From: an uncultured Pseudomonadota bacterium
GTDB taxonomy: Bacteria > Pseudomonadota > Gammaproteobacteria > Methylococcales > Methylomonadaceae
Direction: 5' to 3'
NCBI GenBank assembly: GCA_903918375.1
Contig: CAIXED010000052.1
Coordinates: 1-64,000 of the forward strand
Length of the DNA stretch: 64,000 nucleotides
In this document: in pieces, positions 9,328 to 45,546 of the stretch
How positions within the stretch are numbered: the first letter of the stretch is position 1
How the letters are laid out: the number at the start of each line of letters is the position of its first letter
Program-made: the position numbers and the translations under genes
The notes under the pieces: generated by a model
Database searches by the model: none
Seen by the model: only the letters and a program-made list of their open reading frames with translations
What the model was told of the DNA's origin: nothing

Positions 9328-9330
9328 AAA

Positions 9331-24592: not shown

Positions 24593-24593
24593 A

Positions 24594-26174: not shown

Positions 26175-26180
26175 GCCTAC

Positions 26181-27707: not shown

Positions 27708-27738
27708 GATGTGGTGATCTGTGGCGAATGCCACTTAG

Positions 27739-27767
27739 TTTATAAAGAGCGGTAATGTAACAGTAAA
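27739..27767 (-). promoter_or_regulatory. Candidate promoter of the crtN operon
   Basis: On the minus strand, TTTACT (27767-27762) and TATAAA (27744-27739) are spaced by 17 nt, resembling a sigma-70 promoter. They would give a leader of about 25 nt before the ATG at 27707. Confidence 0.35.
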
Positions 27768-27860
27768 AGCTGGGTTTTGGCAGGGGAATGATGATTGATT
27801 CTTGGGTTTGTTTAAGCGCTCCATGTCAGTAGTATTCGCTTTTCTGCTTTAGCATCAGGT

Positions 27861-27866
27861 TATAAT
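27861..27866 (+). promoter_or_regulatory. Candidate -10 box of the polyene operon
   Basis: Perfect TATAAT at 27861-27866 on the plus strand, 102 nt before the first polyene-operon ATG. No good -35 box lies 16-18 nt upstream, so an activator may be needed or the match may be chance. Confidence 0.3.
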
Positions 27867-27886
27867 CGAGATTTTTTCTGGTTCAG

Positions 27887-27903
27887 TATTATTCCGAATA
27901 ATA
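27887..27903. promoter_or_regulatory. 17-bp palindrome, candidate operator
   Basis: Perfect TATTATTC-C-GAATAATA dyad (8-1-8). It lies in the intergenic region shared by the crtN operon and the divergent polyene operon, 20 nt after the TATAAT. The geometry suits a dimeric repressor, but no regulator gene is adjacent. Confidence 0.4.
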
Positions 27904-27967
27904 GCTATATAAGGCTAGATGATTAGGGGTGTGTTTGTGTTGTTAAAATCAATGGGGTCGTTTTTTT

Positions 27968-28549
27968 ATGCAAAAAATCCGCATGGGTTTCATCGTTAAG
28001 ATTTTGATTTGCTGGCTTATATTGATTTTAAATGCCTCATGTTCAAAATTAGATTCAATGAGTATTGATGCAAAGCCTGTTGAATTAGTTTCTTTTGGCC
28101 CTGCTCGACATATAGAACAATTGGTTACTGCTAAATGGCAAAATATTGAACGACGATTTATTTGCGTTTTAGAAATTGACGATACGCATTTGTCGCTAGC
28201 TGGGCTTGATGAGACTGGGTTTAGTCTGTTCAATCTTTTTTATGATGGAAATCAGCTGGTTTTGAATAAAGATCAGTTATTGAATATAGATATTGATCCG
28301 ACAAGAATTTTGATCGATTTGCAGATGATATATTGGCCTGTTGATAAGTTAAAACAATCGCTTAAGCATTTTTCTGATATTAGTGTTATTGATAATGGTA
28401 GGGTTTTTTATGATGATACTAATCAAGTGCAGGTCGAAGTTAAATATCTTAAAATGCAATCTAATTGGCCAGTAGAGGTTGATTTTGTTAATAATAGCTT
28501 GGGTTATTCGCTGCATATTCTGACGACTAAATATGAATATCTATATTAA
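27968..28549 (+). CDS. Lipoprotein of the aryl polyene locus (DUF3261-like)
   Basis: A 193-residue protein with a signal peptide and lipobox (LNASC, Cys25) followed by a small beta-rich domain. The type and place match the DUF3261 lipoprotein found in aryl polyene clusters, where it is thought to help move or anchor the product at the outer membrane. It is the first gene of an AT-rich operon and overlaps the next gene by 17 nt. The family match is by size, signal and context; sequence conservation is weak to the eye. Confidence 0.7.
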   Translation: MQKIRMGFIVKILICWLILILNASCSKLDSMSIDAKPVELVSFGPARHIEQLVTAKWQNIERRFICVLEIDDTHLSLAGLDETGFSLFNLFYDGNQLVLNKDQLLNIDIDPTRILIDLQMIYWPVDKLKQSLKHFSDISVIDNGRVFYDDTNQVQVEVKYLKMQSNWPVEVDFVNNSLGYSLHILTTKYEYLY

Positions 28550-29714
28550 TGATTTTGGTATTGTTTGTTGTCTAGGATCGAATAAACAGGAAATTAAAGA
28601 TAAATTGTTGGCAGGTGAGCGTAGTGGCTTGCGATTATCAGATAAATTTATCGCTGATCGAGCCATTGTCGTGGGTCAAGTAATCGATACAATTCCTGAT
28701 ATACCTGATGACTTTGAACTCTATGGGTGTCGTAATAATCAATTATTGTTAGCAGCGCTTTCTCAGATTGATTTAGTGGTAGAAAATCTAATCAGTCAAT
28801 TTGGATCTGATCGGATAGGTATTGTTTTGGGCACAAGCACATCAGGTGTTAGGAGTACCGAAATTGCACTTTCTCATCTCGCTACTGTGGGTGAATTGCC
28901 ACCGCATTTCCATTACAAGCAGCAACAAATGGGAGCGGGATCGGATTTTTTGGCTAAATATCTTAATGTTTCTGGGCCCTGTTATACCTTATCGTCAGCT
29001 TGCGCTTCGAGTGGCAAAGCCTTTGCTTCAGCGAAAAGGTTATTAGAAACCAATAGTTGTGATGCGGTGATTGTCGGAGGGGCGGATTCCTTATGTCGAT
29101 TAACTATCAATGGTTTTTCGGCATTGGAATCTTTGAGTAAAAGCTTTTGTAAGCCTTTTGGTACTAGTCGCGATGGGATTAATATTGGTGAGGCTGCAAG
29201 TCTTTTTGTTTTGAGTCGTGTGCCTGGGGCGATCCGTTTAGCGGGAATAGCTTCTACCAGTGATGCTTATCATTATTCTGCACCTGATCCTGCAGGTAGT
29301 TCGGTGGTTCGGGCAATGGCTAAAGCATTAGAACAAGCCGGACTTAAAGCCAATAATGTCGATTATCTTAATCTTCATGGTACGGCGACTATTTTGAATG
29401 ATGCGATGGAAAGTCGTGCCGTGGATACGCTTTTCAGTAATAATGTGGCGGTTAGCTCTAGTAAAGGCATGACAGGTCATACTCTAGGGGCCGCTGCTGC
29501 ATTGGAGCTTGGTTTTTGTTGCTTGTTATTGAGCGGTAATGAATCGGATAGACATGTGATTCCCAATATCAATGATGATAATTTCGATAAATCGCTACCC
29601 GATCTTAATTGGGTGAAATTAGGTCAGCGATTAAATAAAACCATTAATGTTTGTCAAAGCAATTCTTTCGCGTTTGGCGGTAGCAATGTCTCGATAGTTG
29701 TGACAAGAGTATGA
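28533..29714 (+). CDS. apeO: Ketosynthase of aryl polyene synthesis (ApeO-like)
   Basis: A 393-residue FabF/type II PKS ketosynthase with the full catalytic triad: Cys157 in SSACASSGK, His282 in NLHGTATILND and His316 in KGMTGHTLGA. In characterised aryl polyene systems one such ketosynthase pairs with a chain-length-factor-like subunit to elongate the polyene. The order here (KS, dehydratase, reductase, KS) equals apeO-P-Q-R. Neighbouring starts overlap stops, so translation is coupled. Confidence 0.85.
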   Translation: MNIYINDFGIVCCLGSNKQEIKDKLLAGERSGLRLSDKFIADRAIVVGQVIDTIPDIPDDFELYGCRNNQLLLAALSQIDLVVENLISQFGSDRIGIVLGTSTSGVRSTEIALSHLATVGELPPHFHYKQQQMGAGSDFLAKYLNVSGPCYTLSSACASSGKAFASAKRLLETNSCDAVIVGGADSLCRLTINGFSALESLSKSFCKPFGTSRDGINIGEAASLFVLSRVPGAIRLAGIASTSDAYHYSAPDPAGSSVVRAMAKALEQAGLKANNVDYLNLHGTATILNDAMESRAVDTLFSNNVAVSSSKGMTGHTLGAAAALELGFCCLLLSGNESDRHVIPNINDDNFDKSLPDLNWVKLGQRLNKTINVCQSNSFAFGGSNVSIVVTRV

Positions 29715-30154
29715 GCGAGAGTTTGGATGTGCGAGAGTTTTTGCCTCATACAGGCAATATGGTTTTGCTCGACCGTATTTTGGAAGTAGGTGACAATTAT
29801 TTAATCGCCTTGGCTGAAGTCAGAGGCGATGGTTGGTTATTAGGGAATGAGTATTTTGTGCCAGCATGGGCTGGCTTGGAATATATGGCTCAAGCTATCG
29901 CTGCTTATGTCGGTTATAACGCTAAACAAAATAATCAGCCTGTACGATTAGGTTTCCTGCTCGGAACTCGTCAATATACCTGTAGTGTTGATAAATTTGC
30001 TGTGGGCGTGCAGTTAATTATCCATGTTGAAAAAATTATGCAAGATGAGCTTTTAGGTGTTTTTGATTGCACTATTAAAAGTGAGCATGTAGAAATAAAA
30101 GCAAAAATCACCGCGTATCAGCCGGATTCAATTGAGAATTTAAAGCCTTTATGA
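29711..30154 (+). CDS. apeP: Hotdog 3-hydroxyacyl-ACP dehydratase (ApeP-like)
   Basis: A 147-residue single-hotdog protein with the opening VREFLPHTGNMVLLDRI and WAGLEYMAQAIAAYVG, typical of the FabZ/FabA-like ApeP family. It would dehydrate the hydroxyacyl chain to form the conjugated double bonds, probably as a partner of the second dehydratase domain fused to the adenylation enzyme at 34660-36309. ATGA overlaps join it to both neighbours. Confidence 0.85.
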   Translation: MSESLDVREFLPHTGNMVLLDRILEVGDNYLIALAEVRGDGWLLGNEYFVPAWAGLEYMAQAIAAYVGYNAKQNNQPVRLGFLLGTRQYTCSVDKFAVGVQLIIHVEKIMQDELLGVFDCTIKSEHVEIKAKITAYQPDSIENLKPL

Positions 30155-30876
30155 ATAAAAATATTTTAGTGACAGGGTCTAGTCGTGGCATTGGTAAAGC
30201 CATTGCAATCTATTTGGCTAAGCAAGGCTATGATTTGACGTTACATTGTCGCTCTCGACGAGAGGATGCGGAGAAAGTGGCTGACGAGATTTCAAAAATC
30301 GGCCGAAGTGTCAGGGTATTACAATTTGATATCGCCAATCGTCAACAATGTGCTGAAACATTGCTAAAAGATATTGAAGAACAAGGGTGTTATTACGGGG
30401 TGGTTTGTAATGCGGGTATCAGTGCTGATAACGCATTTCCTGCTTTGACTGGTGATGAATGGGATAGCGTTATTAATACCAATCTCGATGGTTTTTTTAA
30501 TGTCCTTCAACCTGTCATTATGCCAATGGTTAGACGAAAAAGCCCTGGGCGTATCGTCACACTTTCGTCGGTCTCAGGATTGGTGGGGAATCGTGGTCAG
30601 GTAAATTACAGTGCCGCTAAAGCAGGGATTATTGGTGCGACTAAAGCCTTGGCTATCGAATTAGCTAAAAGAGATATTACTGTTAATTGTGTCGCACCGG
30701 GTTTAATTGATACCGAAATGGTCGAATCTTTACCTTTGGACGAAATTAAAAAAATGATTCCATTGCGCCGTGTAGGTAGGCCGGAAGAAGTTGCTGCCAC
30801 TGTTGCCTTTTTGATGTCAGATGATGCAGCCTATATTACTCGACAAGTAATATCGGTAAACGGGGGCTTGTGTTGA
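30151..30876 (+). CDS. apeQ: 3-ketoacyl-ACP reductase, FabG-like (ApeQ)
   Basis: A 241-residue short-chain dehydrogenase. The NADPH site is VTGSSRGIGKAIA, followed by the NAG motif in CNAGIS, catalytic Ser in TLSSVSGLVGN, the YSAAK Tyr-Lys pair and a C-terminal SVNGG. It reduces the beta-keto group after each elongation. It overlaps apeP by 4 nt and the next ketosynthase by 7 nt. Confidence 0.92.
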   Translation: MNKNILVTGSSRGIGKAIAIYLAKQGYDLTLHCRSRREDAEKVADEISKIGRSVRVLQFDIANRQQCAETLLKDIEEQGCYYGVVCNAGISADNAFPALTGDEWDSVINTNLDGFFNVLQPVIMPMVRRKSPGRIVTLSSVSGLVGNRGQVNYSAAKAGIIGATKALAIELAKRDITVNCVAPGLIDTEMVESLPLDEIKKMIPLRRVGRPEEVAATVAFLMSDDAAYITRQVISVNGGLC

Positions 30877-32096
30877 AACGGGTTGTCGTGACTGGTATGG
30901 CGGGCCTGTCGCCAATCGGCAATTGCTGGAACGATGTATCCAGACATCTCAAAGCTAAGCAAACAGGGATTAAATATGTTGAGCATTGGGATAAATATAA
31001 AGGGCTCAACACACGTTTAGCTGGCCCGGTTGAGTTTGAAAAACCTGCTCACTATTCACGCAAGCAAACTAGGAGTATGGGGAGAGTCGCTTTATTGTCT
31101 ACCTACGTTACAGAATTGGCTTTACTTGATGCTGATCTATTGATGCATAGTAGTTTGCGATCAGGTGAAACCGGCATCGCATTTGGTAGTTGTGCGGGTA
31201 GTCTCGAGGCTGTTGCTGAATTTGGCAATATGTTGATTAATCATTCTGTCGATGGCTTAAATGCCACTTCTTATATCAGAATGATGTCGCACACCGCGCC
31301 AGTTAATATAGGATTGTTTTTTGGTATCAATGGCCGAGTTTATACAACCTCAAGTGCCTGTACTTCGGCAAGTCAAGGTATAGGATTTGCTTATGAAGCG
31401 ATTAAGCACGGTTATCAAAAGATAATGGTTGCTGGCGGTGCCGATGAGCTTTCTGCTTGTCAAGCTGCGGTGTTCGATACCTTGTTTGCCACCAGTTTAC
31501 AAAATGACAATCCGCAATCAACCCCCAGACCATTTGATATTGATAGAGACGGTTTGGTAATTGGTGAAGGCGCGGGAGCTTTGATTCTCGAAGAGTGGGA
31601 TCATGCTAAAAACAGAGGCGCTAAAATTTACGCGGAAATCGTTGGCTTCGGTACTAACTCAGATGGTCTGCATGTTACTCAGCCAGATAGTTTAAGTATG
31701 CAAGTGCCTATGCAACTGGCGCTTAAAGATGCCAATCTTACAGCCGATCAAATTGCCTATATCAGCGCACACGGCACAGCCACAGAGCATGGTGACATTG
31801 CCGAAAGTCATGCAACCCATAGCGTTTTTGGCAATAAAACGCCAATCAGTTCATTAAAAAGCTATACCGGTCACACATTGGGGGCTTGTGGCGCATTAGA
31901 AGCGTGGACGGCTATTTCAATGATGAATGAAGGTTGGTTTCATCCTAATTTAAACTTGGTTAATCCAGATCCTAGATGTGCAGCGTTAGATTATATTGTT
32001 GGTAATACACGGCAAATTAATTGTGAATACGTTATGAGTAATAATTTTGCATTTGGTGGAATTAATACGTCATTAATTTTTAAGCGAACTATGTAA
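30870..32096 (+). CDS. apeR: Second ketosynthase (ApeR-like)
   Basis: A 408-residue ketosynthase with Cys164 in SSACTSASQG, His301 in SAHGTATEHGD and His335 in SYTGHTLGACG, all intact. It probably starts with GTG (30870) or the adjacent TTG. In studied systems ApeR acts separately from the ApeO/ApeC heterodimer, perhaps in starter handling; assignment between the two ketosynthases here rests on gene order. Confidence 0.85.
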   Translation: MLKRVVVTGMAGLSPIGNCWNDVSRHLKAKQTGIKYVEHWDKYKGLNTRLAGPVEFEKPAHYSRKQTRSMGRVALLSTYVTELALLDADLLMHSSLRSGETGIAFGSCAGSLEAVAEFGNMLINHSVDGLNATSYIRMMSHTAPVNIGLFFGINGRVYTTSSACTSASQGIGFAYEAIKHGYQKIMVAGGADELSACQAAVFDTLFATSLQNDNPQSTPRPFDIDRDGLVIGEGAGALILEEWDHAKNRGAKIYAEIVGFGTNSDGLHVTQPDSLSMQVPMQLALKDANLTADQIAYISAHGTATEHGDIAESHATHSVFGNKTPISSLKSYTGHTLGACGALEAWTAISMMNEGWFHPNLNLVNPDPRCAALDYIVGNTRQINCEYVMSNNFAFGGINTSLIFKRTM

Positions 32097-32113
32097 ATAT
32101 ATTAATTGTTAAA

Positions 32114-32860
32114 ATGGAATTTAACTTAGGTATTGATAGCTGGGCTGCTTGGGCACCTGGTTTAGAAACAAGGCAAGATTGGTTGAGTTGGGATTTTAAT
32201 ATCAATTCAATGCCTAGTGATTATAGTTTGCCAATTCCAAGTGATCATGTGCCGAAACTACTTAAACGGCGGTTGAGTCCTTTGGCACGCATCGTTTTTC
32301 ATGTGATCAATCAATGTATTACCCCCGATCAAACTATGCCAGCGGTTTTTGCCTCGGGTAGTGGTGAAATCAATAATGCGTTCTCCTTACTACAGGATTT
32401 GCAAAATAATGAAGAACTTTCGCCAGCAGGGTTTAGCCTATCAGTCCATAACGGCATAGCGGGTCTATTTTCAATGGTGTATCACAATACCCATGAAATT
32501 GTAGTGATTGCATCGGCTGGTAACGGCATGGTGTCGGGATTTCAAGAGGCGTTGGGGATATTAAACGAAGGTGTCGAGCAAGTGTTATTGGTTTTCTATG
32601 AAGAGCCTATACCGATTTTTTTCCCAATCGAGCCGTTTAAATTAGATAGTGGTTTTCCATTGGCTTTAGCGCTCAAGCTAAGGTCTAATTCAAAGCAATT
32701 AACTCTAATCGCTCGGCGAATTGAACAACTGCAACAAGAGCAGAGTGAGCACTCAATTCAGTTATTAAAGTTCATTCGGTTTTTGGTTTCAGATCAATTG
32801 AACATAATGCTTGATGGGTTTCAATGTAGTTGGCAATGGGAAAAACATGTCTCGAATTAA
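32114..32860 (+). CDS. apeC: Chain-length-factor-like ketosynthase subunit (ApeC)
   Basis: A 248-residue protein resembling only the N-terminal half of a ketosynthase. Where the catalytic cysteine is expected (SA-C-A in the neighbours) it has Gly136 in VIASAGNGMVSG, and both active-site histidines are missing with the C-terminal half. This fits the non-catalytic ApeC family, which pairs with ApeO and sets chain length. The last 14 nt overlap the acyltransferase start. Confidence 0.8.
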   Translation: MEFNLGIDSWAAWAPGLETRQDWLSWDFNINSMPSDYSLPIPSDHVPKLLKRRLSPLARIVFHVINQCITPDQTMPAVFASGSGEINNAFSLLQDLQNNEELSPAGFSLSVHNGIAGLFSMVYHNTHEIVVIASAGNGMVSGFQEALGILNEGVEQVLLVFYEEPIPIFFPIEPFKLDSGFPLALALKLRSNSKQLTLIARRIEQLQQEQSEHSIQLLKFIRFLVSDQLNIMLDGFQCSWQWEKHVSN

Positions 32861-33614
32861 CTATGTTTGGCGATTAATCGCAACCGCAATTAGTTTTATT
32901 AGTTTTGGTGTTGGTGGAGTGATTTTGTGGTGGTTTATTTTTCCCGTTGCTAATCAGTTTTCAGGTAGTCAAAAAATAAAAATTAATAGAAACCAAAGAA
33001 TGGTCCATTATAGTTTTTCTCTGTTTATTGGGCTAATGCATAGGCTAGGGATAATGACTTATGAAGTTATTGGTATTGAAAAACTTAATAAGCCAAAACA
33101 ATTAGTGGTAGCGAATCATCCAACGCTGATTGATGTTGTATTTTTATTAAGCCGAATTAAACATGCGACTTGTATTGTGAAAGCGGCATTGCTTAATAAT
33201 CCAGCTATGCGAGGCCCTATTTTAAATGCTGGGTATATTAGCAATGAAAATTCTGAAATGATGATTGATCAATGTTCGGAATATTTAAAATCAGGCGGAT
33301 GTTTAATTGTTTTTCCAGAAGGAACTCGAAGCCAAGCTGATAAACTTTCGCCTTTTCAAAGAGGCGCAGCCGCTATCGCATTAAAATCAAATTGTATAAT
33401 CACCCCTGTAACGATTACCTGTAACCCAAGTACACTGACAAAAGCAGAGGCTTGGTATCAAATACCTAAGAAGAAATTTCATTTGAGAATGGTGGTCGGG
33501 GATGATATTGGTTTTGATGAGTTTTATGATGCTCAATCAAGACCAATTGCAGTTCGGCGCTTAACAGAAAAGCTAACAGATTATTTTACAAAAACAAAAA
33601 AATATTATGAATGA
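32847..33614 (+). CDS. apeD: PlsC-like acyltransferase (ApeD-like)
   Basis: A 255-residue membrane-anchored acyltransferase of the 1-acylglycerol-3-phosphate family. An N-terminal hydrophobic segment is followed by ANHPTLIDVVFL (HX4D motif) and FPEGTRSQADKLSPFQRGAA. It probably attaches an acyl or polyene chain to a glycerolipid-like scaffold. The start at 32847 fits the family; an upstream in-frame TTG at 32811 lies deep in the previous gene. Confidence 0.82.
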   Translation: MSRINYVWRLIATAISFISFGVGGVILWWFIFPVANQFSGSQKIKINRNQRMVHYSFSLFIGLMHRLGIMTYEVIGIEKLNKPKQLVVANHPTLIDVVFLLSRIKHATCIVKAALLNNPAMRGPILNAGYISNENSEMMIDQCSEYLKSGGCLIVFPEGTRSQADKLSPFQRGAAAIALKSNCIITPVTITCNPSTLTKAEAWYQIPKKKFHLRMVVGDDIGFDEFYDAQSRPIAVRRLTEKLTDYFTKTKKYYE

Positions 33615-33864
33615 ACTGGAAATAGAAATAAAAAAACTCATTGTTGATACGCTGGCTTTAGACGATGTGGATTTTGATGATATTGATAGTCAGGCACCAC
33701 TTTTTAACGAAGGATTGGGCTTGGATTCAATTGATGCTTTAGAGTTAGGTTTGGCGATTAGAAAAAAATATAATATTAAAATTGATGCTGAAAAAGATGA
33801 TGTTGTAAAAATATTTTCATCTGTTTCAGCATTAAGTCACTATATTAAAACAGCTAAAGCCTGA
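33607..33864 (+). CDS. apeE: Acyl carrier protein 1 (ApeE-like)
   Basis: An 85-residue acidic carrier protein with the phosphopantetheine site GLGLDSIDALELG (Ser41). It would carry the growing polyene chain. It overlaps the acyltransferase by 8 nt and lies 7 nt before a second carrier protein. No phosphopantetheinyl transferase gene is in the operon. Confidence 0.92.
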   Translation: MNELEIEIKKLIVDTLALDDVDFDDIDSQAPLFNEGLGLDSIDALELGLAIRKKYNIKIDAEKDDVVKIFSSVSALSHYIKTAKA

Positions 33865-33871
33865 GGTTAAC

Positions 33872-34120
33872 ATGGAAAATCGTCAAGAGATATTGGCAAC
33901 CATTCAAGAGATTATGGTTGATATGTTTGAATTGGATCCTGAAAAAGTCACGCTAGAGGCTAGATTATATGAGGATCTTGATTTTGATAGTATTGATGCG
34001 GTTGATATGATTGTAAGATTAAAGGAAATTACAGGGAAAACGGTTAAACCTGAGGATTTCAAATCGGCACGAACTATTAATGATGTTGTTGAGGCTGTTT
34101 TTAATCTAATCAATAGTTAA
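33872..34120 (+). CDS. apeF: Acyl carrier protein 2 (ApeF-like)
   Basis: An 82-residue carrier protein with the attachment site DLDFDSIDAVDMI (Ser40). Two distinct carrier proteins side by side are typical of aryl polyene clusters, one probably for the aryl starter and one for extension. It ends 1 nt before the membrane protein gene. Confidence 0.92.
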   Translation: MENRQEILATIQEIMVDMFELDPEKVTLEARLYEDLDFDSIDAVDMIVRLKEITGKTVKPEDFKSARTINDVVEAVFNLINS

Positions 34121-34121
34121 T

Positions 34122-34673
34122 ATGCGTGGATTAGTAAAAGCATTGATCATTTTGATAATGCTTATTTACCCAATAATTGTGTATTGCGGTTTGCAATATT
34201 ATGAACCACGTATATTGGCTATTGTTATGGTATCGCTATTTTTGCTGAGATTAGTCTTTTTTGATCAAATTAAAAATAAAATATTGGGTTTAGTGGTTTG
34301 TGCCTATTTTGTTTTAGTGGTATGGACTAATCAACTGATTTCATTGCAGTTTTATCCTGTTGTAATGAGTTTTACTTTGTTGTTGATTTTTACATTAAGT
34401 TTGTTTTTTCCTCCACCTATTATTGAGAAAATTGCCCGTATCAGTCAGCCCGATTTGCCACCAGAGGCTGTCGTTTACACAAGAAAAGTTAATATTGTTT
34501 GGTGTGTTTTTTTTGCAGTAAATGGTGTGGTTGCTTTACTGACAGCATTATGGGCAAGTTTTGAAATCTGGACGTTGTATAATGGATTGATTTCTTATTT
34601 ATTGATGGGGATTTTGTTTGTTGCAGAATATGCAGTAAGGCAGAAATTGATTAAACAGAATGTCAATGATTAA
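34122..34673 (+). CDS. apeG: Polytopic membrane protein (ApeG-like)
   Basis: A 183-residue hydrophobic protein with about six membrane segments by eye, and PPIIEKIARISQPDLPPEAVVYTRKV as its main hydrophilic loop, a feature of the COG4648-type protein found in these clusters. Its role is unknown; it may organise the lipid-side enzymes at the membrane. It overlaps the next gene by 14 nt. Confidence 0.75.
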   Translation: MRGLVKALIILIMLIYPIIVYCGLQYYEPRILAIVMVSLFLLRLVFFDQIKNKILGLVVCAYFVLVVWTNQLISLQFYPVVMSFTLLLIFTLSLFFPPPIIEKIARISQPDLPPEAVVYTRKVNIVWCVFFAVNGVVALLTALWASFEIWTLYNGLISYLLMGILFVAEYAVRQKLIKQNVND

Positions 34674-36309
34674 TCTATCAGAAATTAATTCGACAAAATT
34701 AGATCATCCGGCTGCTTTTCACAATGGCAGTTATTTTTCTTTCAATCAGTTTAAAAGACAAGTTAATTTTTGGACTGGAGTTTTTCTAAAACAACCTAAT
34801 AAAAAATTCGCGCTCTATAGTCACGATACTTATCCATTTGCCGTTTTGTTTTTTGCACTTTTACAAGCCAGTAAACAAATATGGATTCCGGGAAATAATC
34901 TGCCTGCTACTGCTCGAGAACTTGAGAAATTAGGTTGTCAGCTAATAGGCGATTGGTTAGAAAAATTTGATTATCAATTGACAAAACAATCAGATAATCA
35001 ATTTCCGTTAATTGATTTAAAAAATGATGTTGTTGTTTTATTTACGTCGGGATCTAATGGATTACCAAAGCAAGTCGCCAAATCAATTCAGCAATTACAA
35101 AATGAAATTAATTGTTTGGAAAAACAATGGGGGCATGAGCTTGAAGATTGCCAAATTTATGCCAGTGTCAGTCATCAGCATATTTATGGTTTATTGTTTA
35201 GAGTATTATGGCCATTAGCTAGTGGGCGTTGTTTTAATAGTCAAAATAGATGGTATAAAAATAATCATCAGTCTATTTGTTGGATTAGCTGTCCTGCTCA
35301 TTTAAAAAGATTGGATTTTTATGCTGCTTGGATTGATTTATCCAAGGTGCGGATGATTTTCAGTTCTGGCGGTGTTTTACCTTGTTTGGTTTCAGAGGCA
35401 ATTAGTAATCAATATAGCATTGTGCCAAATGAAATATATGGCAGTACAGAAACTGGCGGTATCGCTTGGCGACAATATCCCAGTCAAACTTGGACGTTAT
35501 TTGAAAGTTTAAAATTAGATGCAGAGGGGGACGATGTTTTACTGTATTCACCTTATTTGCCCGATGCTAATGGGTATTTAATTGAGGATAGTCTTCAATT
35601 TGAAGCTGATAATAAGTTTAAACTTTTGGGTAGAAAAGATACTGTAGTCAAAATAGAAGAAAAAAGATTGTCATTAACGGCTTTTGAGTTTTTATTAACT
35701 GATAGTGTTTGGGTTAATGAAGCGGTGGCGATTAAATTAATAACGAATCGAGAATGTATTGCCGTAATCGCTGTTTTATCTGAAGAAGGCCAGCAATATA
35801 AGAATGATTTTGGTCGGAAAGCTTTGATTGATATTTTAAGGTTAAAGTGTTTAGAAAGTTTTGAGGCTTTGTTCTTGCCAAGAAAATGGATTTTTATTAA
35901 TACAATGCCTGTTAATAGTCAAGGAAAAATAGATAAATTATTGTTATATTATTTTTTTGACCTAAATACTAAAAAATATCCGCTTGTTAAACAATTATCG
36001 CTTGATAATCAATCGGTGTCTCTTGATATAAAAGTTAGTAAAAAACTGATGTATTTTGCGGATCATTTTCGTGATTTTCCAATTCTTCCCGGCGTGATTC
36101 AAGTAGGGTGGGTAGAGCATTTTGCTAAATTATTATTGCCAATTCATGCGAATTTCAGCCATATGGAAGTGATTAAATTTATTAAGCCAATTTTGCCGGG
36201 TGTTGAATTAAATCTAAAATTAGATTGGCAACCTGATAAAGGTAAGTTGACATTTGGTTATACACTCAGTGGCGAAGTTGTTAGTTCTGGTCGCATTCTT
36301 TATCGATAA
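34660..36309 (+). CDS. apeH: Fused adenylation enzyme and dehydratase (ApeH-ApeI)
   Basis: A 549-residue two-domain protein. The N-terminal acyl-AMP ligase domain has FTSGSNGLPK (128-137), EIYGSTETGG (around 259-267) and the catalytic-lysine segment NSQGKIDK near its end. The C-terminal part from about residue 440 is a FabZ-like hotdog domain with DHFRDFPILPGV (His469). In E. coli and Xenorhabdus these are separate proteins, ApeH loading the aryl acid and ApeI dehydrating. The fusion ties starter activation to chain processing. Confidence 0.88.
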   Translation: MSMINLSEINSTKLDHPAAFHNGSYFSFNQFKRQVNFWTGVFLKQPNKKFALYSHDTYPFAVLFFALLQASKQIWIPGNNLPATARELEKLGCQLIGDWLEKFDYQLTKQSDNQFPLIDLKNDVVVLFTSGSNGLPKQVAKSIQQLQNEINCLEKQWGHELEDCQIYASVSHQHIYGLLFRVLWPLASGRCFNSQNRWYKNNHQSICWISCPAHLKRLDFYAAWIDLSKVRMIFSSGGVLPCLVSEAISNQYSIVPNEIYGSTETGGIAWRQYPSQTWTLFESLKLDAEGDDVLLYSPYLPDANGYLIEDSLQFEADNKFKLLGRKDTVVKIEEKRLSLTAFEFLLTDSVWVNEAVAIKLITNRECIAVIAVLSEEGQQYKNDFGRKALIDILRLKCLESFEALFLPRKWIFINTMPVNSQGKIDKLLLYYFFDLNTKKYPLVKQLSLDNQSVSLDIKVSKKLMYFADHFRDFPILPGVIQVGWVEHFAKLLLPIHANFSHMEVIKFIKPILPGVELNLKLDWQPDKGKLTFGYTLSGEVVSSGRILYR

Positions 36310-36315
36310 AATAAT

Positions 36316-37050
36316 ATGAGATTTTGTATAGTCATCCCTGTTTATAATCATGACTCAGCAGTTTTAAGTGTATTAGAAAACTTAAACAAGTTTCAATTGC
36401 CTTGTATTTTGATTAATGATGGTAGTTCAGTGGAATGTGGTCAAAACTTATTTCGATATGCTCAAGACAGAGCAGATTGGGTGACGCTGATAAATAGACC
36501 GGAAAATGGTGGTAAAGGCATCGCGGTTTTAGATGGTTTTAAATATGCTATCGCTACAGGTTTTACTCATGCAATACAAATTGATGCCGATGGTCAGCAT
36601 AATACAAATGATATTCCGATGATACTTGAAATGAGTCGGAACTCACCGAATCAGCTGATATTTGGTAAGCCAGTTTATGAAAGTTGCGCGCCGTTAAGTC
36701 GTAGATATGGGCGCTATATTGCTAATTTTTGGGTTTGGGTAAATACATTATCGTTTGCAATTGCAGATGGTATGTGTGGATTTCGACTTTATCCTTTACA
36801 TGCTGTACAAAAAATTTTAAATAATGACATTAAACTGGAGTCAGGAATGGCTTTTGATATTGATATTGCTGTTCGACTTTATTGGGAAAAATTTGATGTT
36901 ATTAATTTTTCTACCATAGTCACTTATCCGTTAGATGGTATTTCACATTACAAAATATTGAACGATAACTGGCAAATTACTAAAACACATACAAAATTAT
37001 TTTTTGGTATGTTGTATCGTGTTATTGACCTGATGGCTAGACATTTTTAA
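36316..37050 (+). CDS. Family 2 glycosyltransferase
   Basis: A 244-residue GT-A glycosyltransferase of the dolichol-phosphate-mannose synthase type, with IVIPVYNHD, NGGKGIAVLDGF, the metal-binding DADGQHN and ADGMCGFRLYP. No C-terminal membrane anchor is visible. In several aryl polyene clusters a glycosyltransferase is fused to an acyltransferase (ApeJ); here the acyltransferase is the separate next gene, overlapping by one base (TAATG). Confidence 0.87.
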   Translation: MRFCIVIPVYNHDSAVLSVLENLNKFQLPCILINDGSSVECGQNLFRYAQDRADWVTLINRPENGGKGIAVLDGFKYAIATGFTHAIQIDADGQHNTNDIPMILEMSRNSPNQLIFGKPVYESCAPLSRRYGRYIANFWVWVNTLSFAIADGMCGFRLYPLHAVQKILNNDIKLESGMAFDIDIAVRLYWEKFDVINFSTIVTYPLDGISHYKILNDNWQITKTHTKLFFGMLYRVIDLMARHF

Positions 37051-37973
37051 TGAAGCAAACAAAACATTGGGCCGATTTTCAAGAGAAAAGTTCTCTTTTA
37101 GGTATTCGCTTATTATTTGATATTTATCGGTTTTTTGGCAAAAGGATTGCTGGTCTGATTTTATATCCAGTGGTATTTTATTATTGGTTGACTAATAAAC
37201 CAGCCAGATTAGCCAGTTACAATTATTTGCGTCGATTATCGCTCTATGCGCCACAATCTAAAATTGATGATTCGATTGGTTTTAGCTTGAAACATTTTTT
37301 TAGTTTTGCAGACTCAATAGTCGATAAATTAGCTGGCTGGTGTGGTTTGTTGCCGGAAACGCATTTTGAGTATCAAGGAAGAGATCTATTGGTGGCAGAA
37401 TTAAATGCCGGTAGAGGTGTGTTGCTTTTGGGGTCTCATTTTGGCAATCTCGAATTATGTAGAGTGATTGCTAATCATCAAGAAGATATAAAAATTAATG
37501 TTTTAGTTCATACTAAACATGCTCAAAAATTTAATCACTTACTTAAACAATACAACGCTAAAAGTAGTCTGAATTTGTTTCAAGTTACCGATATTGATAT
37601 GAGTACCGTAATGATGTTGGCTGATAAAATTGATAATGGCGAATTAGTTATTATCGCGGCGGATAGAGTGCCGGTGAATAATAATCGAAGAACAACGCAA
37701 GTTAGCTTTCTTGGTGGTTTAGCAGCCTTTCCGCAAGGGCCATATATTTTAGGTTCGTTATTAGCTTGTCCGATTTATACTGTGTTTTGTGTGAAAGATA
37801 AAAATAATTACAAAATTAATTTCGAGCTTTTTAGTCAAAAACTGATGTGGTCTAAATCTGATAGAGAATATGAAATTGCACAGTATGTACAGCTTTATGC
37901 AAAACGATTAGAGGCTCAGGTTTTGAAAGCACCTTTGCAGTGGTTTAATTTTTATGAATTTTGGATAGGTTGA
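37050..37973 (+). CDS. LpxL/HtrB-type lipid acyltransferase
   Basis: A 307-residue inner-membrane acyltransferase of the lipid A biosynthesis family. The HX4E catalytic motif is GSHFGNLE (His130, Glu135), followed by AADRVPVNNN and FLGGLAAFPQGPYIL. Together with the previous glycosyltransferase it corresponds to the two halves of ApeJ. It probably acylates the glycosylated lipid carrier of the polyene rather than lipid A, judging from the operon. Confidence 0.85.
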   Translation: MKQTKHWADFQEKSSLLGIRLLFDIYRFFGKRIAGLILYPVVFYYWLTNKPARLASYNYLRRLSLYAPQSKIDDSIGFSLKHFFSFADSIVDKLAGWCGLLPETHFEYQGRDLLVAELNAGRGVLLLGSHFGNLELCRVIANHQEDIKINVLVHTKHAQKFNHLLKQYNAKSSLNLFQVTDIDMSTVMMLADKIDNGELVIIAADRVPVNNNRRTTQVSFLGGLAAFPQGPYILGSLLACPIYTVFCVKDKNNYKINFELFSQKLMWSKSDREYEIAQYVQLYAKRLEAQVLKAPLQWFNFYEFWIG

Positions 37974-37977
37974 TTAG

Positions 37978-39510
37978 ATGGATCAAGATCAAATAGTATT
38001 TGATGGCTCATGTTTGACAATTGAAAATATTGTTGATGTTGCAAGACAAAACAATCAATATCACTTATCTAATCAAAATCAATTTGTTGAGCGTATTGAT
38101 AAAGGTGCAGCTTTTGTTGATAAGCTACTTAAAGAAGATCAATGTGTTTATGGTGTCACTACTGGATACGGTGATTCTTGTACTGTGGCTGTTCCTTTGG
38201 ATTTGGTAGATCAATTACCCATACATTTATATACTTTTCATGGTTGTGGAATGGGTGATTCTTTTAATGTTGAAGAAACACGAGCTATCCTAGCAACACG
38301 ATTAAATAGTTTGGCTAAGGGGTTTTCAGGTGTTAGATATAGTTTACTAAATCAAATTTATCAATTATTAATATTTAATATAAATCCATTAATTCCCAAA
38401 GAAGGCTCAGTGGGTGCGAGTGGTGATTTAACCCCATTATCCTATCTCGCGGCTGTTTTAGCTGGTGAAAGAGAAGTGATTTATCAAGGTCAGCAACAAA
38501 CTACAGCGGTTGTTTTTGCCGAATTAAATATTAAGCCGCTTAAATTTAAGCCAAAAGAAGTGTTGGCTATTATGAATGGCACAGCAGCGATGACCGGGGT
38601 CGCTTGTCTTGCTTGGTATCGTGCTGAATATCTTTCCAGATTAATTACCCGAATTACCAGTATCGCTATCTTAGCCTTGCAAGGAAATGACTATCACTAT
38701 GATGCTAAATTATTTTCTTTAAAGCCGCATCAAGGACAAAGTCAAGTTGCCAGTCGAATTCGTCAGGATTTATTGATAACAGGCGATGTCCCGCGTAATG
38801 ATGGTCGTTTGCAAGATCGTTACTCGCTTCGTTGTGCGCCTCATATTATTGGTGTGCTTGAAGATGCGTTGCCTTTTCTAAGGCAATTGATAGAAACCGA
38901 ACTGAATAGCGTGACCGATAATCCCATCATTGATTTTGAAACTGAGCGAGTTTTACATGGCGGGCATTTTTATGGTGGACATATTGCAATGGCAATGGAT
39001 ACTTTGAAAGTCGCTGTTGCCAATTTAGCCGATCTTTTAGACAGGCAGTTCGCTCAATTGGTTGATACAAAATTTAATCAAGGATTACCGGCTAATTTAT
39101 CGGGTGCCGCTAATGATCAGTTGATGTTAAATCATGGTTTTAAAGCGCTTCAAATAGCGGTGTCATCTTGGACGGCTGAGGCTTTGAAATTAACTATGCC
39201 AGCCAGTGTCTTTTCAAGATCCACCGAATGTCATAATCAAGACAAAGTGAGTATGGGCACTATTGCTGCTCGTGATTGTATTCGTGTATTGGAATTGACC
39301 GAACAGGCCGCTGCCGCTTTACTTATCGCCACAGTGCAAGCGCTTGAATTAAGAGATAAGCAGTTTCCTGTGAGTAATGACATTCAACAAACAATTACCA
39401 GCTTGCGAAATCACGTTGCTTTTTTAACCGTTGATAGGGCGCTAGATAGCGAACTTCGGCTTTGTGTGGATTTGATTCGTAGTCGATATTGGAATTTATA
39501 TGAAGCCTGA
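37978..39510 (+). CDS. Aromatic amino acid ammonia-lyase (HAL/TAL/PAL family)
   Basis: A 510-residue MIO-cofactor lyase. The cofactor triad Ala147-Ser148-Gly149 is in GSVGASGDLTPLSY, and the N-terminal catalytic Tyr58 in VYGVTTGYGD. At the substrate-selectivity position the residues are Phe87-His88 (YTFHGCG), unlike Ser-His of histidase or His-Leu of Rhodobacter tyrosine lyase. Within a polyene operon it most likely makes a cinnamate or p-coumarate starter, as in flexirubin loci. No urocanase or other hut gene is nearby, which argues against histidine use. Confidence 0.88.
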   Translation: MDQDQIVFDGSCLTIENIVDVARQNNQYHLSNQNQFVERIDKGAAFVDKLLKEDQCVYGVTTGYGDSCTVAVPLDLVDQLPIHLYTFHGCGMGDSFNVEETRAILATRLNSLAKGFSGVRYSLLNQIYQLLIFNINPLIPKEGSVGASGDLTPLSYLAAVLAGEREVIYQGQQQTTAVVFAELNIKPLKFKPKEVLAIMNGTAAMTGVACLAWYRAEYLSRLITRITSIAILALQGNDYHYDAKLFSLKPHQGQSQVASRIRQDLLITGDVPRNDGRLQDRYSLRCAPHIIGVLEDALPFLRQLIETELNSVTDNPIIDFETERVLHGGHFYGGHIAMAMDTLKVAVANLADLLDRQFAQLVDTKFNQGLPANLSGAANDQLMLNHGFKALQIAVSSWTAEALKLTMPASVFSRSTECHNQDKVSMGTIAARDCIRVLELTEQAAAALLIATVQALELRDKQFPVSNDIQQTITSLRNHVAFLTVDRALDSELRLCVDLIRSRYWNLYEA

Positions 39511-39913
39511 AAATTTATCCGCTATTGTCGATATTGAAGTGCCTTTTCATGATGTAGACATGATGACTATTGTTTGGCATGGTCATTATTGTAAATATTT
39601 TGAAATCGCCCGTTGTGCCTTATTGACGCAATTTAATTACAACTACCCGCAAATGCGTGATTCTGGATACAGCTGGCCAATAGTTGATTTAAGAATACGT
39701 TATGTTAAGCCGGCTTATTTTGGTCAAATACTCTCTGTGCGAGCTACCTTGGTGGAATGGGAGAATCGTTTAAAAATTGAATATTTAATTTTCGATAAAC
39801 TGAGCGGACAAAAGTTGACTAAGGGATATAGTATTCAAGTCGCAGTTGATATGACTACGCAACAAATGTGTTTTGAATCTCCGAAAATACTGTTTGATAA
39901 ATTAGGTCTATGA
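39500..39913 (+). CDS. apeK: 4-hydroxybenzoyl-CoA-type thioesterase (ApeK-like)
   Basis: A 137-residue hotdog thioesterase with the family signature FHDVDMMTIVWHGHYCKYFE, including the probable catalytic Asp18. It may release or edit acyl chains on the carrier proteins. It overlaps the ammonia-lyase by 11 nt and the next gene by 4 nt. Confidence 0.85.
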   Translation: MKPENLSAIVDIEVPFHDVDMMTIVWHGHYCKYFEIARCALLTQFNYNYPQMRDSGYSWPIVDLRIRYVKPAYFGQILSVRATLVEWENRLKIEYLIFDKLSGQKLTKGYSIQVAVDMTTQQMCFESPKILFDKLGL

Positions 39914-40503
39914 TGATTATTTACCGATTATTTATCTTTATTGCACTCTGTTTGATGGTTGATATGGCGGTGGCTGAAGACGTTTTGCAGCAAATACAAA
40001 ATCAGCTAAGCCAGGCGAAAATTGCTAGTGGCCAGTTTCAACAGGAAAAACAACTCAAATTTCTAAAAAAACCCTTGATTTCAAGTGGCGATTTTACTTA
40101 TCAACATAAAGTGGGTTTAGTTTGGAAAACCAACTCGCCTTTTACATCTACCTTATTGCTTAGTGAAACCCGCTTAATTTCAAATCAGATTGAACGTGAA
40201 ATTCCGATTGGCTTTGGGCGAATCTTTGCCTCAGTATTGGGGGGTGATATTCAGCAACTCGATCAAGATTTTGTCATTAATAGCCAACTAAAAAACCATA
40301 CTTGGGATTTAACCCTTAATCCTAAAAACCAAGCCCTGTCCAAAGCAATTGTTATGCTTAAACTCACTGGTGACAGTGAATTAAGATTGCTTGAAATTCA
40401 TGAAGTGAATGGCAATGTCGCACGAATACAGTTTGACAAAATAACTCATCCGACAGAGTTAAGCCCGCAACAGGTAACAGACTTTGAACAATTATTACCC
40501 TAA
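39910..40503 (+). CDS. apeL: LolA-like periplasmic carrier (ApeL-like)
   Basis: A 197-residue protein with a signal peptide ending about VDMAVA and a LolA-type domain (ASGQFQQEKQLKFLKKPLISSGDF, KVGLVWKTNSP). LolA proteins carry lipoproteins across the periplasm; the version in polyene clusters is thought to carry the lipidated pigment to the outer membrane. The next gene starts inside its last 20 nt. Confidence 0.85.
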   Translation: MMIIYRLFIFIALCLMVDMAVAEDVLQQIQNQLSQAKIASGQFQQEKQLKFLKKPLISSGDFTYQHKVGLVWKTNSPFTSTLLLSETRLISNQIEREIPIGFGRIFASVLGGDIQQLDQDFVINSQLKNHTWDLTLNPKNQALSKAIVMLKLTGDSELRLLEIHEVNGNVARIQFDKITHPTELSPQQVTDFEQLLP

Positions 40504-42814
40504 GTTTGCCGCCCTGATTTGGGGTGTTGCTATGTTGTTTATTATTGGGTTTGGCTGGCAGCGAAGCCATACCGATTGGTTGGAAACTAGTTTTCTTTCA
40601 TTACTACCTGCGACCGAACAAAGACCTGAAGTTGCCGCCGCTATTGATCGCCATAATCAAACCATTAATCGCAAAATTATTTGGTTAGTCGGCGCAAACA
40701 ATGTCGAGCAAGCGATTGATCAAGCCCAAATTATTGAAAAGCAATTAGTTGATAGTCATCTATTTAGTCAATTATTGTTTCAACTTCTCCAAGCGCAGTA
40801 TCAAAATAAATACACAGATTTATTTAGTTATCGCTATCAATTCTTGGATCAACAAACTCGAGCTCTGATTGGCAACGACTTAAATACCTTTGTTAAAAAT
40901 GCCGTAGAACTGATTTATAGTCCTTTAGGTAGTATTCAATCATTTGGATTAGAGCATGACCCTTATTTGATTTTTAATCGATTTTTCAGTCAACAAACGC
41001 AATTTAATTTTAATATTGAGCACAATGTGATTGTGCTTAAAGAAGCCGATAGAGCTTGGGCTGTTATTATTGGTGAGCTAGAAGATCAAAGTTTAAAATT
41101 AGATAAATTAGAACAATTAGTCACATTAAACACTCAATTTCATTCATTAATCAACGCTCAAGGTGGTGAATTATTGGCGACGGGATTGCCGCTATACACT
41201 GCGTTTGGTGCCCAGGTTGCACAAACAGAAATCTCAACCATAGGATTAGGTTCTACGATTGGTATTGTTTTGCTATTGCTATTGGTTTTTAAAGATCCAA
41301 GACCATTATTGTTGTCTTGCATCGCGGTCGGCAGTGGTTTGCTGGCGGCTTGGGTTATATCTTTGCAATTATTTGGCAAGTTACACATTCTCACCTTAGT
41401 TTTTGGTGCCAGTCTGATTGGGGTAGTGATTGATTATTCCTTACACTTTTTCTGTGATGGTCTTGGACTAAAGCATTGGACACCAATGTCTGGATTGAAA
41501 TATGTGCTACCAGGTATTGCATTTGGCTTGTTAACCAGTTTGCTAGGCTACGCTGGATTAGGTTTTTCACCGTTTCCGGGCTTACAAGAGATTGCGGTTT
41601 TTTCAGCGATTGGTTTGATTGTGTCTTGGCTTACGGTCGTGATGTTATTTCCGCTTTTGTTGCGCGGCTTTAAATTCAAACACGACAGCAGCTTTGTGAC
41701 TTTAATTGGCTTTTGGCAGCAACAATGGCCGATATTGATTTTGAATAACCAACGCTTGCTGATGTTTGGATTGGCTGGATATATCATTATCGGCCTTAGT
41801 CAGTTGGTGGCGAATGACGATATTCGCGCCTTGCAAACGGTGCCGGAACAATTATTTTCAGCCGAACAAAAAATCAAGCAGCTTTTACCTATCCATCGTG
41901 AGCATCCATTTTTTTTAGTGACTGGCAAGCAAATAGATGATTGGTATCAAAACGAACAAATTTTGGTATCAAGTCTGAGCGAGCTAAAACAACAAAACCA
42001 ACTCAAAGATTTTGAAGCTATTTCGGCCTATTGGCCCGATCAAACCCTACAGCGACAGAACTATCAATTATTAAAAAGCACGGTTTATCAACCGGATTTT
42101 CTAAAACACTATATGGCTGATTTAGGTTTTGATGACAATGCTTATGCTAAAGAGCTTAGTGACTTTAAGTTAGCAGAAAACTTGACGATGAGCTTGGCGG
42201 CTTGGCTAAACAGCGATGAAAAATTTAAAAGCCAGTGGCTTGGATGTAATGAAAATGGCTGCCAAAGCATAGTTTCTCTGACTGGTATAAAAGACTTAGC
42301 CAAGCTTGAGTCTTTGGCTAAGCCTGATGCCGTGATTTGGGTTAATCATACTGGTGAAATGTCAGGTCTTTTCAAACGCTATAGGCTTGATGTCAGTGTT
42401 TTAATCATCATCGTTTGTGTGATGATTTATTGTGGATTGCTATTCAAACTAGGGCGATTAAATGCCACGCGGATTATGGCGGTTCCGGTGATTTCTATGT
42501 TGTCGGCCTTAGCAACATTGGGCTTATTTAACCAGTTATTCAGTTTATTTAATCTATTTGCATTGCTATTGGTTTTAGAAATAGGCATTGATTATGCTTT
42601 TTTCTTTTATATGGCCGGACAAGATCAAAATGTCGATGAAAAAAGAACTAGTACTTCATTAGCCGTCACCTTATCAGCATTTACCACGCTGTTATCGTAT
42701 GGACTTTTAGCAACCTGTACTACAACTATTGTCCATGCTTTTGGGCTTACTTTATTAGTGGGGGTTTTAGTGGCGTTTTTATTGTCGCCGTTGGTTGGGG
42801 TTGTAAGAAAATAA
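40484..42814 (+). CDS. apeM: MMPL/RND-type exporter (ApeM-like)
   Basis: A 776-residue inner-membrane exporter with the two-fold MMPL plan: one N-terminal helix, a large periplasmic loop, five or so helices (about residues 250-390), a second loop and a C-terminal helix bundle with LVLEIGIDYAFFFYMAG. It would lift the polyene lipid out of the inner membrane for the LolA-like carrier. Translation probably begins at TTG 40484; a later ATG at 40532 is possible. It is the last gene of the AT-rich operon. Confidence 0.85.
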   Translation: MNNYYPKFAALIWGVAMLFIIGFGWQRSHTDWLETSFLSLLPATEQRPEVAAAIDRHNQTINRKIIWLVGANNVEQAIDQAQIIEKQLVDSHLFSQLLFQLLQAQYQNKYTDLFSYRYQFLDQQTRALIGNDLNTFVKNAVELIYSPLGSIQSFGLEHDPYLIFNRFFSQQTQFNFNIEHNVIVLKEADRAWAVIIGELEDQSLKLDKLEQLVTLNTQFHSLINAQGGELLATGLPLYTAFGAQVAQTEISTIGLGSTIGIVLLLLLVFKDPRPLLLSCIAVGSGLLAAWVISLQLFGKLHILTLVFGASLIGVVIDYSLHFFCDGLGLKHWTPMSGLKYVLPGIAFGLLTSLLGYAGLGFSPFPGLQEIAVFSAIGLIVSWLTVVMLFPLLLRGFKFKHDSSFVTLIGFWQQQWPILILNNQRLLMFGLAGYIIIGLSQLVANDDIRALQTVPEQLFSAEQKIKQLLPIHREHPFFLVTGKQIDDWYQNEQILVSSLSELKQQNQLKDFEAISAYWPDQTLQRQNYQLLKSTVYQPDFLKHYMADLGFDDNAYAKELSDFKLAENLTMSLAAWLNSDEKFKSQWLGCNENGCQSIVSLTGIKDLAKLESLAKPDAVIWVNHTGEMSGLFKRYRLDVSVLIIIVCVMIYCGLLFKLGRLNATRIMAVPVISMLSALATLGLFNQLFSLFNLFALLLVLEIGIDYAFFFYMAGQDQNVDEKRTSTSLAVTLSAFTTLLSYGLLATCTTTIVHAFGLTLLVGVLVAFLLSPLVGVVRK

Positions 42815-42925
42815 TCATACTGGTTTCAGTATTAGATGATAAATCTCCAAAACATAAGTGGTTGGGAATACAGCTATTACCAGCGATATTGGGTATTAGC
42901 TTAAATGCCGTTCACTATCCATACG

Positions 42926-42985
42926 CTGATGGTGAATCCAAATCTCGGCTAAATTCTGATCCGCGAGTTTGCTAAGTTTATACCG
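42926..42985 (-). pseudogene. Fragment of a ParE-type toxin gene
   Basis: The minus-strand translation RYKLSKLADQNLAEIWIHHQ looks like the N-terminal helix of a RelE/ParE toxin, but the similarity ends at once and no partner antitoxin is seen. The rest of the 382-nt gap 42815-43196 shows nothing else recognisable apart from a TATAAT at 43157-43162. Confidence 0.35.
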
Positions 42986-43196
42986 TTGAACGTTTGGCCT
43001 TTTCGCGGGCGATGATGTCATCACCTCTGGTTTCACCGGTTCGGTGTCTGTCATAGCGACTGCTAGAAATTTGAGAAGCGATAAAGCTATCGAAATGATC
43101 GTGTATAGAAAAACTGGTTTTTGTGCATGCCAAGCGGCTAGCAAAATCATTAGGGTTATAATGCTGACCCGACTTCATCAAAACACTTTTCAAACC

Positions 43197-44999: not shown

Positions 45000-45274
45000 A
45001 ACAAAATGCCAATATTCCGTGATTGATGTATCACCCGAACAATATCGATTCCATTTTCTAAGGGAAAATAAAAAATTAGATAATTGCCGATTGGGTGACT
45101 ACGCAAATTTGCTTTGAGTTCGTTTCGTATGGTTCCCAAGTGAGGAAAATTCGCCAGCGACAGACTGGTTTCTTGGATTTGATTAAGAAATCGGTCTGCG
45201 TTATTTGGGCTGTCTTGAGCAATGTAAAACCAAATATCATCAAGGTCGATTTTGGCTTCTGGGCGAATTAACAA
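44996..45274 (-). CDS. parE: ParE/RelE-type toxin
   Basis: A 92-residue toxin of the ParE family with IRPEAKIDLDDIWFYIAQDSPNNADRFL and the C-terminal NYLIFYFPLENGIDIVRVIHQSRNI. Family members poison gyrase or act on RNA. The start is probably TTG at 45274, since no in-frame ATG lies nearby and the antitoxin gene ends 8 nt upstream. Its stop overlaps the convergent ABC exporter stop by 4 nt. Confidence 0.87.
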   Translation of the reverse strand: MLIRPEAKIDLDDIWFYIAQDSPNNADRFLNQIQETSLSLANFPHLGTIRNELKANLRSHPIGNYLIFYFPLENGIDIVRVIHQSRNIGILF

Positions 45275-45282
45275 ATGTGATA

Positions 45283-45546
45283 TTAAGCGTCGAACCCTTG
45301 TTGAGCTGCTAACCGTAGACGACCATTAGTTTTGATTGATTCTATGTCCAAAGCAGTTGATTCACCGCTATCTATTCCTTTTTGGATTTCTTTACGCAAT
45401 TCTTCAAGTTTTAGCTCGTGTAGCTGATCGCGTTCTTCCAATAATGCCAACGCTTCACGTATCACTTCGTTGATTGAGGTGTAATGGCCACTGTCGATTT
45501 TGTTTTTAATCAATGCTTCAAAATGAGGGGTTAAGGAAATATTCAT
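45283..45546 (-). CDS. parD: ParD-type antitoxin
   Basis: An 87-residue antitoxin with the ribbon-helix-helix opening ISLTPHFEALIKNKIDSGHYTSINEVIREALALLEE, followed by a charged flexible tail that would wrap the toxin. The ATG at 45546 has GGAG 8 nt upstream; another ATG at 45552 is too close to it. Such antitoxins usually repress their own promoter. Confidence 0.88.
   Translation of the reverse strand: MNISLTPHFEALIKNKIDSGHYTSINEVIREALALLEERDQLHELKLEELRKEIQKGIDSGESTALDIESIKTNGRLRLAAQQGFDA

Follow-up and report, generated by a model that had tools for sequence, protein, structure and literature searches.

Aryl polyene (APE) biosynthesis is described, in the portions of the published sources available to us, as primed by 4-hydroxybenzoate (PMC8253772, PMC8358021, PMC8041823), the E. 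coli CFT073 cluster (ApeA-R; PMC8253772) being the reference used here. In the flexirubin locus of Chitinophaga pinensis, as set out in the accessible part of PMC3992019, a lyase, the tyrosine ammonia-lyase (TAL) FlxA, feeds the aryl polyene line, and the operon reported here would share this logic. The operon lies on the forward strand of a 64,000-nucleotide stretch (the window; positions 1 to 64,000 of contig CAIXED010000052.1, assembly GCA_903918375.1) from an uncultured, methane-oxidising member of the Methylomonadaceae and consists of 17 consecutive genes from the first ATG at 27968 to the final stop at 42814, with adjoining genes overlapping or at most 17 bases apart throughout. By gene content the cluster is an aryl polyene operon, and its Pfam content and E. 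coli gene matches bear out the first-pass annotation, which had named a 17-gene operon of the aryl polyene type; the start given there, 27708, falls within a divergent crt gene. As also recognised at that stage, an aromatic amino acid ammonia-lyase (AL; 37978–39510) is flanked by an acyltransferase (37050–37973) and a thioesterase (39500–39913).

The CFT073 cluster has matches for 16 of the 17 window genes, the AL being the exception, and the block running from the DUF3261 gene through ketosynthase (KS), dehydratase (DH) and ketoreductase (KR) to a second KS has the same internal order in both. CFT073 has no AL, as the first-pass annotation had stated for the E. coli-type locus, and carries ApeA and the methyltransferase ApeB; the window is the opposite with respect to the AL, and no match to ApeB was shown between 22 and 46 kb. 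Neither mark of the E. coli-type (4-hydroxybenzoate) subtype, lack of an AL and an ApeB within the cluster, is therefore seen in the window. In CFT073 the ligase ApeH and the dehydratase ApeI are separate, ApeJ is fused and the two gene blocks stand in the other order, whereas in the window the ligase and ApeI form a single gene and the glycosyltransferase (GT) and acyltransferase are two genes. The ApeH signature reads PLTFLLAI in CFT073 and HILLRFSG in the window. The APE clusters of A. baumannii and Pseudoalteromonas have the AL slot, the split GT and acyltransferase and the ApeH residues S236 and G267 as in the window, and A. baumannii also has the ApeH-ApeI fusion; they differ in their usual block order and in having, downstream of the exporter, a flavoprotein with a WxWxIP motif, neither of which the window has.

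Judging from the sequence, it is probable (at roughly 0.7) that the window holds an APE operon of an AL-bearing subtype, primed by the acid that the AL would make from L-tyrosine or L-phenylalanine. The observations behind this reading are the gene content and order, the intact motifs, the co-occurrence of the AL with APE genes and the covariation of ApeH with the AL.

Covariation of the starter ligase with the lyase

Were the AL to feed the operon, the starter-loading ligase would be expected to differ between AL-bearing (AL+) and AL-less (AL−) clusters. An initial comparison with seven AL− rows flagged 45 positions of ApeH. The main set comprised 123 AL+ and 27 AL− rows over 430 columns, leaving out loci L076–L078 and L085–L095, identical proteins and short proteins; six AL-less methanotroph loci, whose only full ligase match is a divergent upstream gene, were kept, and L255 (genome G458), which has an AL elsewhere in the genome, was counted as AL− in the row comparisons and the control and as AL+ in the tree test. 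The best separators of the 430 columns were 179, 267, 175, 183, 236 and 190, followed, after two variable columns, by 234. Both S236 and G267 are present in 123/123 AL+ rows, while among the AL− rows G267 is replaced in 23/27 and S236, always by Ala, in 21/27. In 20 AL− and 20 AL+ rows unused in the flagging, G267 was changed in 16 versus 0 and S236 in 14 versus 0, with L179 (16 versus 2), L183 (15 versus 1), I175 (15 versus 3) and F234 (13 versus 2) behaving similarly. Most other flagged positions failed in these new rows, among them H172 (8 versus 6 of 20), which was rejected as a separator.

A control is provided by the other proteins of the pathway. Five ApeH positions combine a conservation of at least 97% in the AL+ training rows with a separation of at least 0.6, and the same comparison of 11 other Ape proteins found zero such positions, with a gap counted as a change and with GT (6 AL− rows), KR and ApeP (5 and 8 AL+ rows, respectively) serving as weak controls. 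Equally strong separation occurs at less conserved positions of several control proteins, the highest values being 0.8 for ApeE and 0.88 for ApeP. F234, S236 and G267 align with positions of a gramicidin synthetase adenylation domain that we take to be specificity-code positions 299, 301 and 330, and residues 175–183 follow the HIYG motif, which in acyl-CoA ligases presumably belongs to the acid pocket. TIGR02372 (4-coumarate-CoA ligase) was rejected as evidence for coumarate because E. coli ApeH scores about equally (75 versus 77 bits).

In an ApeH tree built without the pocket columns and using 92 of the 150 rows, the AL changes seven times and the signature five times. The covariation of ApeH with the AL suggests a starter derived from an amino acid, as the first-pass annotation had proposed; the proposal gains support from it that falls short of proof, the phylogenetic control being only suggestive.

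Several observations weigh against a lyase-derived starter. Four AL-less loci keep S236 and G267; one of these genomes, G458, has its AL elsewhere (57%), and the other three (G346, G405 and G192) are without an AL and have lyases of 32–33% identity or none. Among the 16 remaining AL-less genomes no lyase above 35% identity was found. An independent-pairs test gave five pairs on supported branches, of which a mean of 3.8 agree and none opposes (p 0.125, range 0.125–0.25, with 0.05 beyond the reach of the test), so shared ancestry may also explain the association. Motif 1 of the AL, F-H or Y-H, departs from the His reported for TALs. According to the accessible part of PMC8041823, 4-hydroxybenzoate was turned into polyene in vitro by Ape enzymes of A. 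baumannii, and UbiC, a source of this acid, was found in the window genome. These last two points, together with the AL-type ligase kept in three AL-less genomes and the occurrence of AL-less APE clusters in the window's own genus, favour priming by UbiC-derived 4-hydroxybenzoate as in E. coli, with the AL as an auxiliary or bypass enzyme that might give a second supply or act in a later modification. We consider this quite unlikely, since ApeH shifts together with the AL and the AL slot is kept across many genera. A sequenced A. baumannii cluster, not necessarily that of the strain used in vitro, has an AL and the same ApeH signature. The broader proposal, that AL-bearing APE clusters form a chemically distinct subtype in which a ligase pocket co-evolved with the lyase loads 4-coumarate or cinnamate, and to which the 4-hydroxybenzoate model would not apply, A. 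baumannii included, appears to us evenly balanced.

Residues and occurrence of the lyase

The Ala-Ser-Gly (ASG) triad and the catalytic Tyr are present in 134/134 distinct APE-type ALs, the window's included, and the Gln of motif 2 in 133/134. Motif 1 is F-H in 107/134 and Y-H in 27/134, and it does not discriminate between Tyr and Phe use. A published rule, in the accessible part of PMC3992019, places Phe or His at motif 1 in phenylalanine ammonia-lyases and His in TALs, and the predominance of Phe as the first residue is in keeping with the AL being a phenylalanine lyase that would supply plain cinnamate as the starter. Section 5 of the same source reports that motif 1 misleads in the case of FlxA, a TAL, and the first residue is Tyr in the 27 Y-H enzymes; a phenylalanine lyase seems to us rather unlikely. 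The AL reached no cut-off among the NCBIfam lyase models. With 338.5 bits against a cut-off of 700 in the FlxA model, membership of the flexirubin TAL family was rejected; the first-pass annotation had likened the origin of the starter to that in flexirubin loci. An in-frame TAG in the AL genes of G027 and G052 was likewise dismissed: in G027, the one inspected, it lies one codon before the aligned end and reads as an ordinary stop.

The AL-bearing arrangement is common. In a scan of named genomes, from which the best 80 of at least 579 confirmed loci were taken, the AL sits between acyltransferase and thioesterase in 68/80; of the remaining 12, five have an acyltransferase upstream but no recognised gene on the other side, three are flanked by ApeH upstream and by the thioesterase downstream, and four lack neighbours on one side or have neighbours not recognised as the usual ones. 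Within the window's family an AL match was found in 68/151 genomes, or 66/151 without two weak ones (G009 and G054), which were dropped before counting co-occurrence together with three weak ApeP genomes (G047, G069 and G087); ApeP exceeded its cut-off in 72/151. Both genes occur in 64 genomes, AL only in 2, ApeP only in 8 and neither in 77. Five of the eight ApeP-only genomes belong to the window's own genus and, with G120, have a different cluster, in which a flavoprotein is followed by the KS-DH-KR-KS block and then by the chain length factor (CLF) block, with a divergent ligase; in these AL-less clusters (L079–L084) the LolA, MMPL and DUF3261 genes of the window had no match at E 1e-6. The loci retrieved from G041 and G121 are truncated at contig ends. 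Across the phylum ApeI was matched in 73/398 genomes, the window's own counted, and 40 of the 72 others were fetched, picked for family diversity; the AL lies within the cluster in 20/40 of these loci. APE clusters as such are reportedly dominant in Methylococcaceae (PMC11964084). The first-pass annotation had treated the AL as an oddity in a gammaproteobacterial layout; the best-80 named loci, the family and the phylum sample instead show it to be a regular component of a common subtype, and novelty of its position was rejected, the slot being found in Pseudoalteromonas, A. baumannii and most of the named loci.

Among other genera of the family, AL-bearing clusters including L054, L060, L061, L067, L069, L070, L072 and L073 have a CrtI-like gene past the thioesterase, which matches the window's crt genes at 21–24%, but lack a LolA match at that place; a weak MMPL match lies further along in L068, L072 and L073. 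In L055 and L058 the AL stands without recognised main APE neighbours in the fetched 20 kb, and ApeP is on another contig of those genomes.

Composition, gene order and gene content of the locus

The AT-richness of the operon relative to its flanks, pointed out at first pass, was confirmed: cluster G+C is 0.376 against 0.449 over 341,501 bases sampled elsewhere in the genome, and G+C at third codon positions is 0.20–0.38 in cluster genes against 0.49–0.54 in the four flanking genes measured. In 9/9 relatives, picked for their long contigs, the genes matched to the cluster have a higher G+C than two other stretches and than the remainder of the locus (AT-rich relatives such as L119, L124, L127 and L130 stand outside this comparison with own backgrounds). 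These figures, the long end branch of the AL (0.49, with a long-branch warning on its placement) and the fact that the nearest ApeH row by path is from another genus (L071) are in line with a recent horizontal transfer of the cluster from an AT-rich donor, at which the earlier annotation had hinted. Against this, the AL falls in an eight-row clade of Methylomonas and near kin (support of 96 in the Shimodaira–Hasegawa-like approximate likelihood ratio test, SH-aLRT; L071 was left out of this tree), Methylomonas sp. FW.007 shares the block order, and a stretch of contig C17 of the window genome (L212, about 4271–14770), whose genes read like type II secretion, is similarly AT-rich, down to 0.344 in 5 kb. 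The compositional anomaly stands and a distant donor is not supported; recent transfer is rather unlikely, any donor is probably a close relative, and the cluster may be one of the Methylomonas lineage that drifted or that was received from a closely related AT-rich bacterium. FW.007 (L117) and M. koyamae SM2 (L118) belong to the same AL clade as the window, and their G+C by gene, about 0.48–0.56 and 0.53–0.62, respectively, is richer than that of the window cluster.

In the window the CLF-to-exporter block follows the KS-DH-KR-KS block after 17 bases, the reverse of the usual layout. The same swapped order is seen in FW.007 (475 bases between; L117 starts inside ApeO, its upstream side lying outside the sequence) and in G011, G079 and G147 (about 4 to 6 kb between); both FW.007 and the SM2-matching genome have the ApeO-P-Q-R block before the ApeC-M block. 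The flavoprotein found in 17/20 AL-bearing loci of the phylum-wide sample, whose WxWxIP motif we take to be that of flavin halogenases, had no match at E 1e-5 in the window genome, and none in the SM2-matching genome or any of five AL-bearing genus-mates searched; the same query matched 4/11 genomes searched (G042, G014, G061 and G038). The mark of a xanthomonadin-like (halogenated) cluster, a halogenase-like flavoprotein of this kind, is therefore not seen in the window genome, in a search that did not extend to other halogenases. As a whole the locus is a typical representative of a very common pigment family, with the swapped blocks and the lack of a flavoprotein match as its particular traits.

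The first block opens with the ApeN-position gene, a DUF3261 (LolB-like) lipoprotein (27968–28549; PF11659, 91 bits), followed by the ketosynthase ApeO (28533–29714; PF00109/PF02801, 45% to the E. coli gene at the ApeO position, SSACASSGKA motif by reading), the dehydratase ApeP (29711–30154; PF22817 ApeP-like, 83 bits), the ketoreductase ApeQ (30151–30876; PF13561, 59% to E. coli) and the second ketosynthase ApeR (30870–32096; PF00109/PF02801, 59% to E. coli). The second block begins with the chain length factor ApeC (32114–32860; PF13723, Ketoacyl-synt_2), which completes a KS-CLF pair, and the lysophospholipid-type acyltransferase ApeD (32850–33614; PF01553), for which the ATG at 32850 was used, the list of open reading frames having an earlier TTG at 32811. 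A tandem pair of acyl carrier proteins, ApeE (33607–33864; GLDSIDA motif) and ApeF (33872–34120; DFDSIDA motif; both PF00550, motifs by reading), precedes the membrane protein ApeG (34122–34673; 45% to the E. coli gene at the ApeG position), which gave no Pfam or NCBIfam match. The fused ApeH-ApeI gene (34660–36309; PF00501 and PF22818) carries I175, L179, L183, F234, S236 and G267, the AL-type signature, and both Ape-specific Pfam models, of ApeI and ApeP, exceed their cut-offs. Next come the GT2 glycosyltransferase (36316–37050; PF00535) and the lipid A-type acyltransferase (PF03279, Lip_A_acyltrans), equivalent to the first and second halves of E. coli ApeJ, and the AL, of the 4-methylideneimidazole-5-one (MIO) type (PF00221 Lyase_aromatic, 525 bits), with its ASG triad, catalytic Tyr and an NQD motif. 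The thioesterase ApeK (PF13279, 4HBT; 54% to E. coli), the LolA-like carrier ApeL (39910–40503; PF19574/PF03548) and the exporter ApeM of the resistance-nodulation-division (RND)/MMPL type (40484–42814; 28% to the E. coli exporter) complete the operon. The PF03176 (MMPL) score of ApeM, 20.0, is marginal, just below the cut-off of 20.5, and its scores against the HAE3 and HpnN models were far under their cut-offs.

The window genome (2.79 Mb, 82 contigs) has one phosphopantetheinyl transferase match and a match to a methane/ammonia monooxygenase subunit. Promoter and terminator scans gave site numbers not above those in shuffles. By reading, a 233-base gap (27735–27967) separates the APE operon from a divergent operon (23105–27734) with two CrtI-family desaturases, above the TIGR02734 cut-off, and an aldehyde dehydrogenase, placing two pigment loci back to back; the divergent operon presumably resembles the C30 carotenoid genes of methanotrophs. 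Further downstream, a small gene pair (44996–45552) reads like a ParD/ParE-type antitoxin and toxin, and a similar-looking fragment just past the APE operon (42896–43150) could mark an old insertion border.

Proposed route and meaning

From these genes we infer the chemistry, the starter and the export as follows. The AL would deaminate L-tyrosine (or L-phenylalanine) to 4-coumarate (or cinnamate), which ApeH would activate and load onto ApeE. ApeO-ApeC would then condense the loaded starter with malonyl units, with ApeQ reducing and the ApeI domain and ApeP dehydrating over several rounds, and ApeK would release or hand on the polyene acid. This acid would be attached to a lipid by ApeD, the GT and the lipid A-type acyltransferase, and ApeM, ApeL and the DUF3261 lipoprotein would carry the product to the outer membrane. 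Because the cluster has no methyltransferase and the genome no flavoprotein match, a (hydroxy)phenyl ring without decoration is expected as the head group.

A literature search by titles and abstract starts, with subscription papers mostly outside it, found none joining aryl polyenes with an ammonia-lyase or coumaric acid; the subtype may well be described in the main Xenorhabdus study or the 2014 cluster survey. There is a gap between the published 4-hydroxybenzoate priming and a phylum-wide sample in which half of the clusters hold a lyase that would supply another acid, and the ligases of the AL-bearing clusters differ at a few otherwise fixed positions. Since the window's genus holds both AL-bearing and AL-less clusters, the question of the starter is testable in related bacteria.

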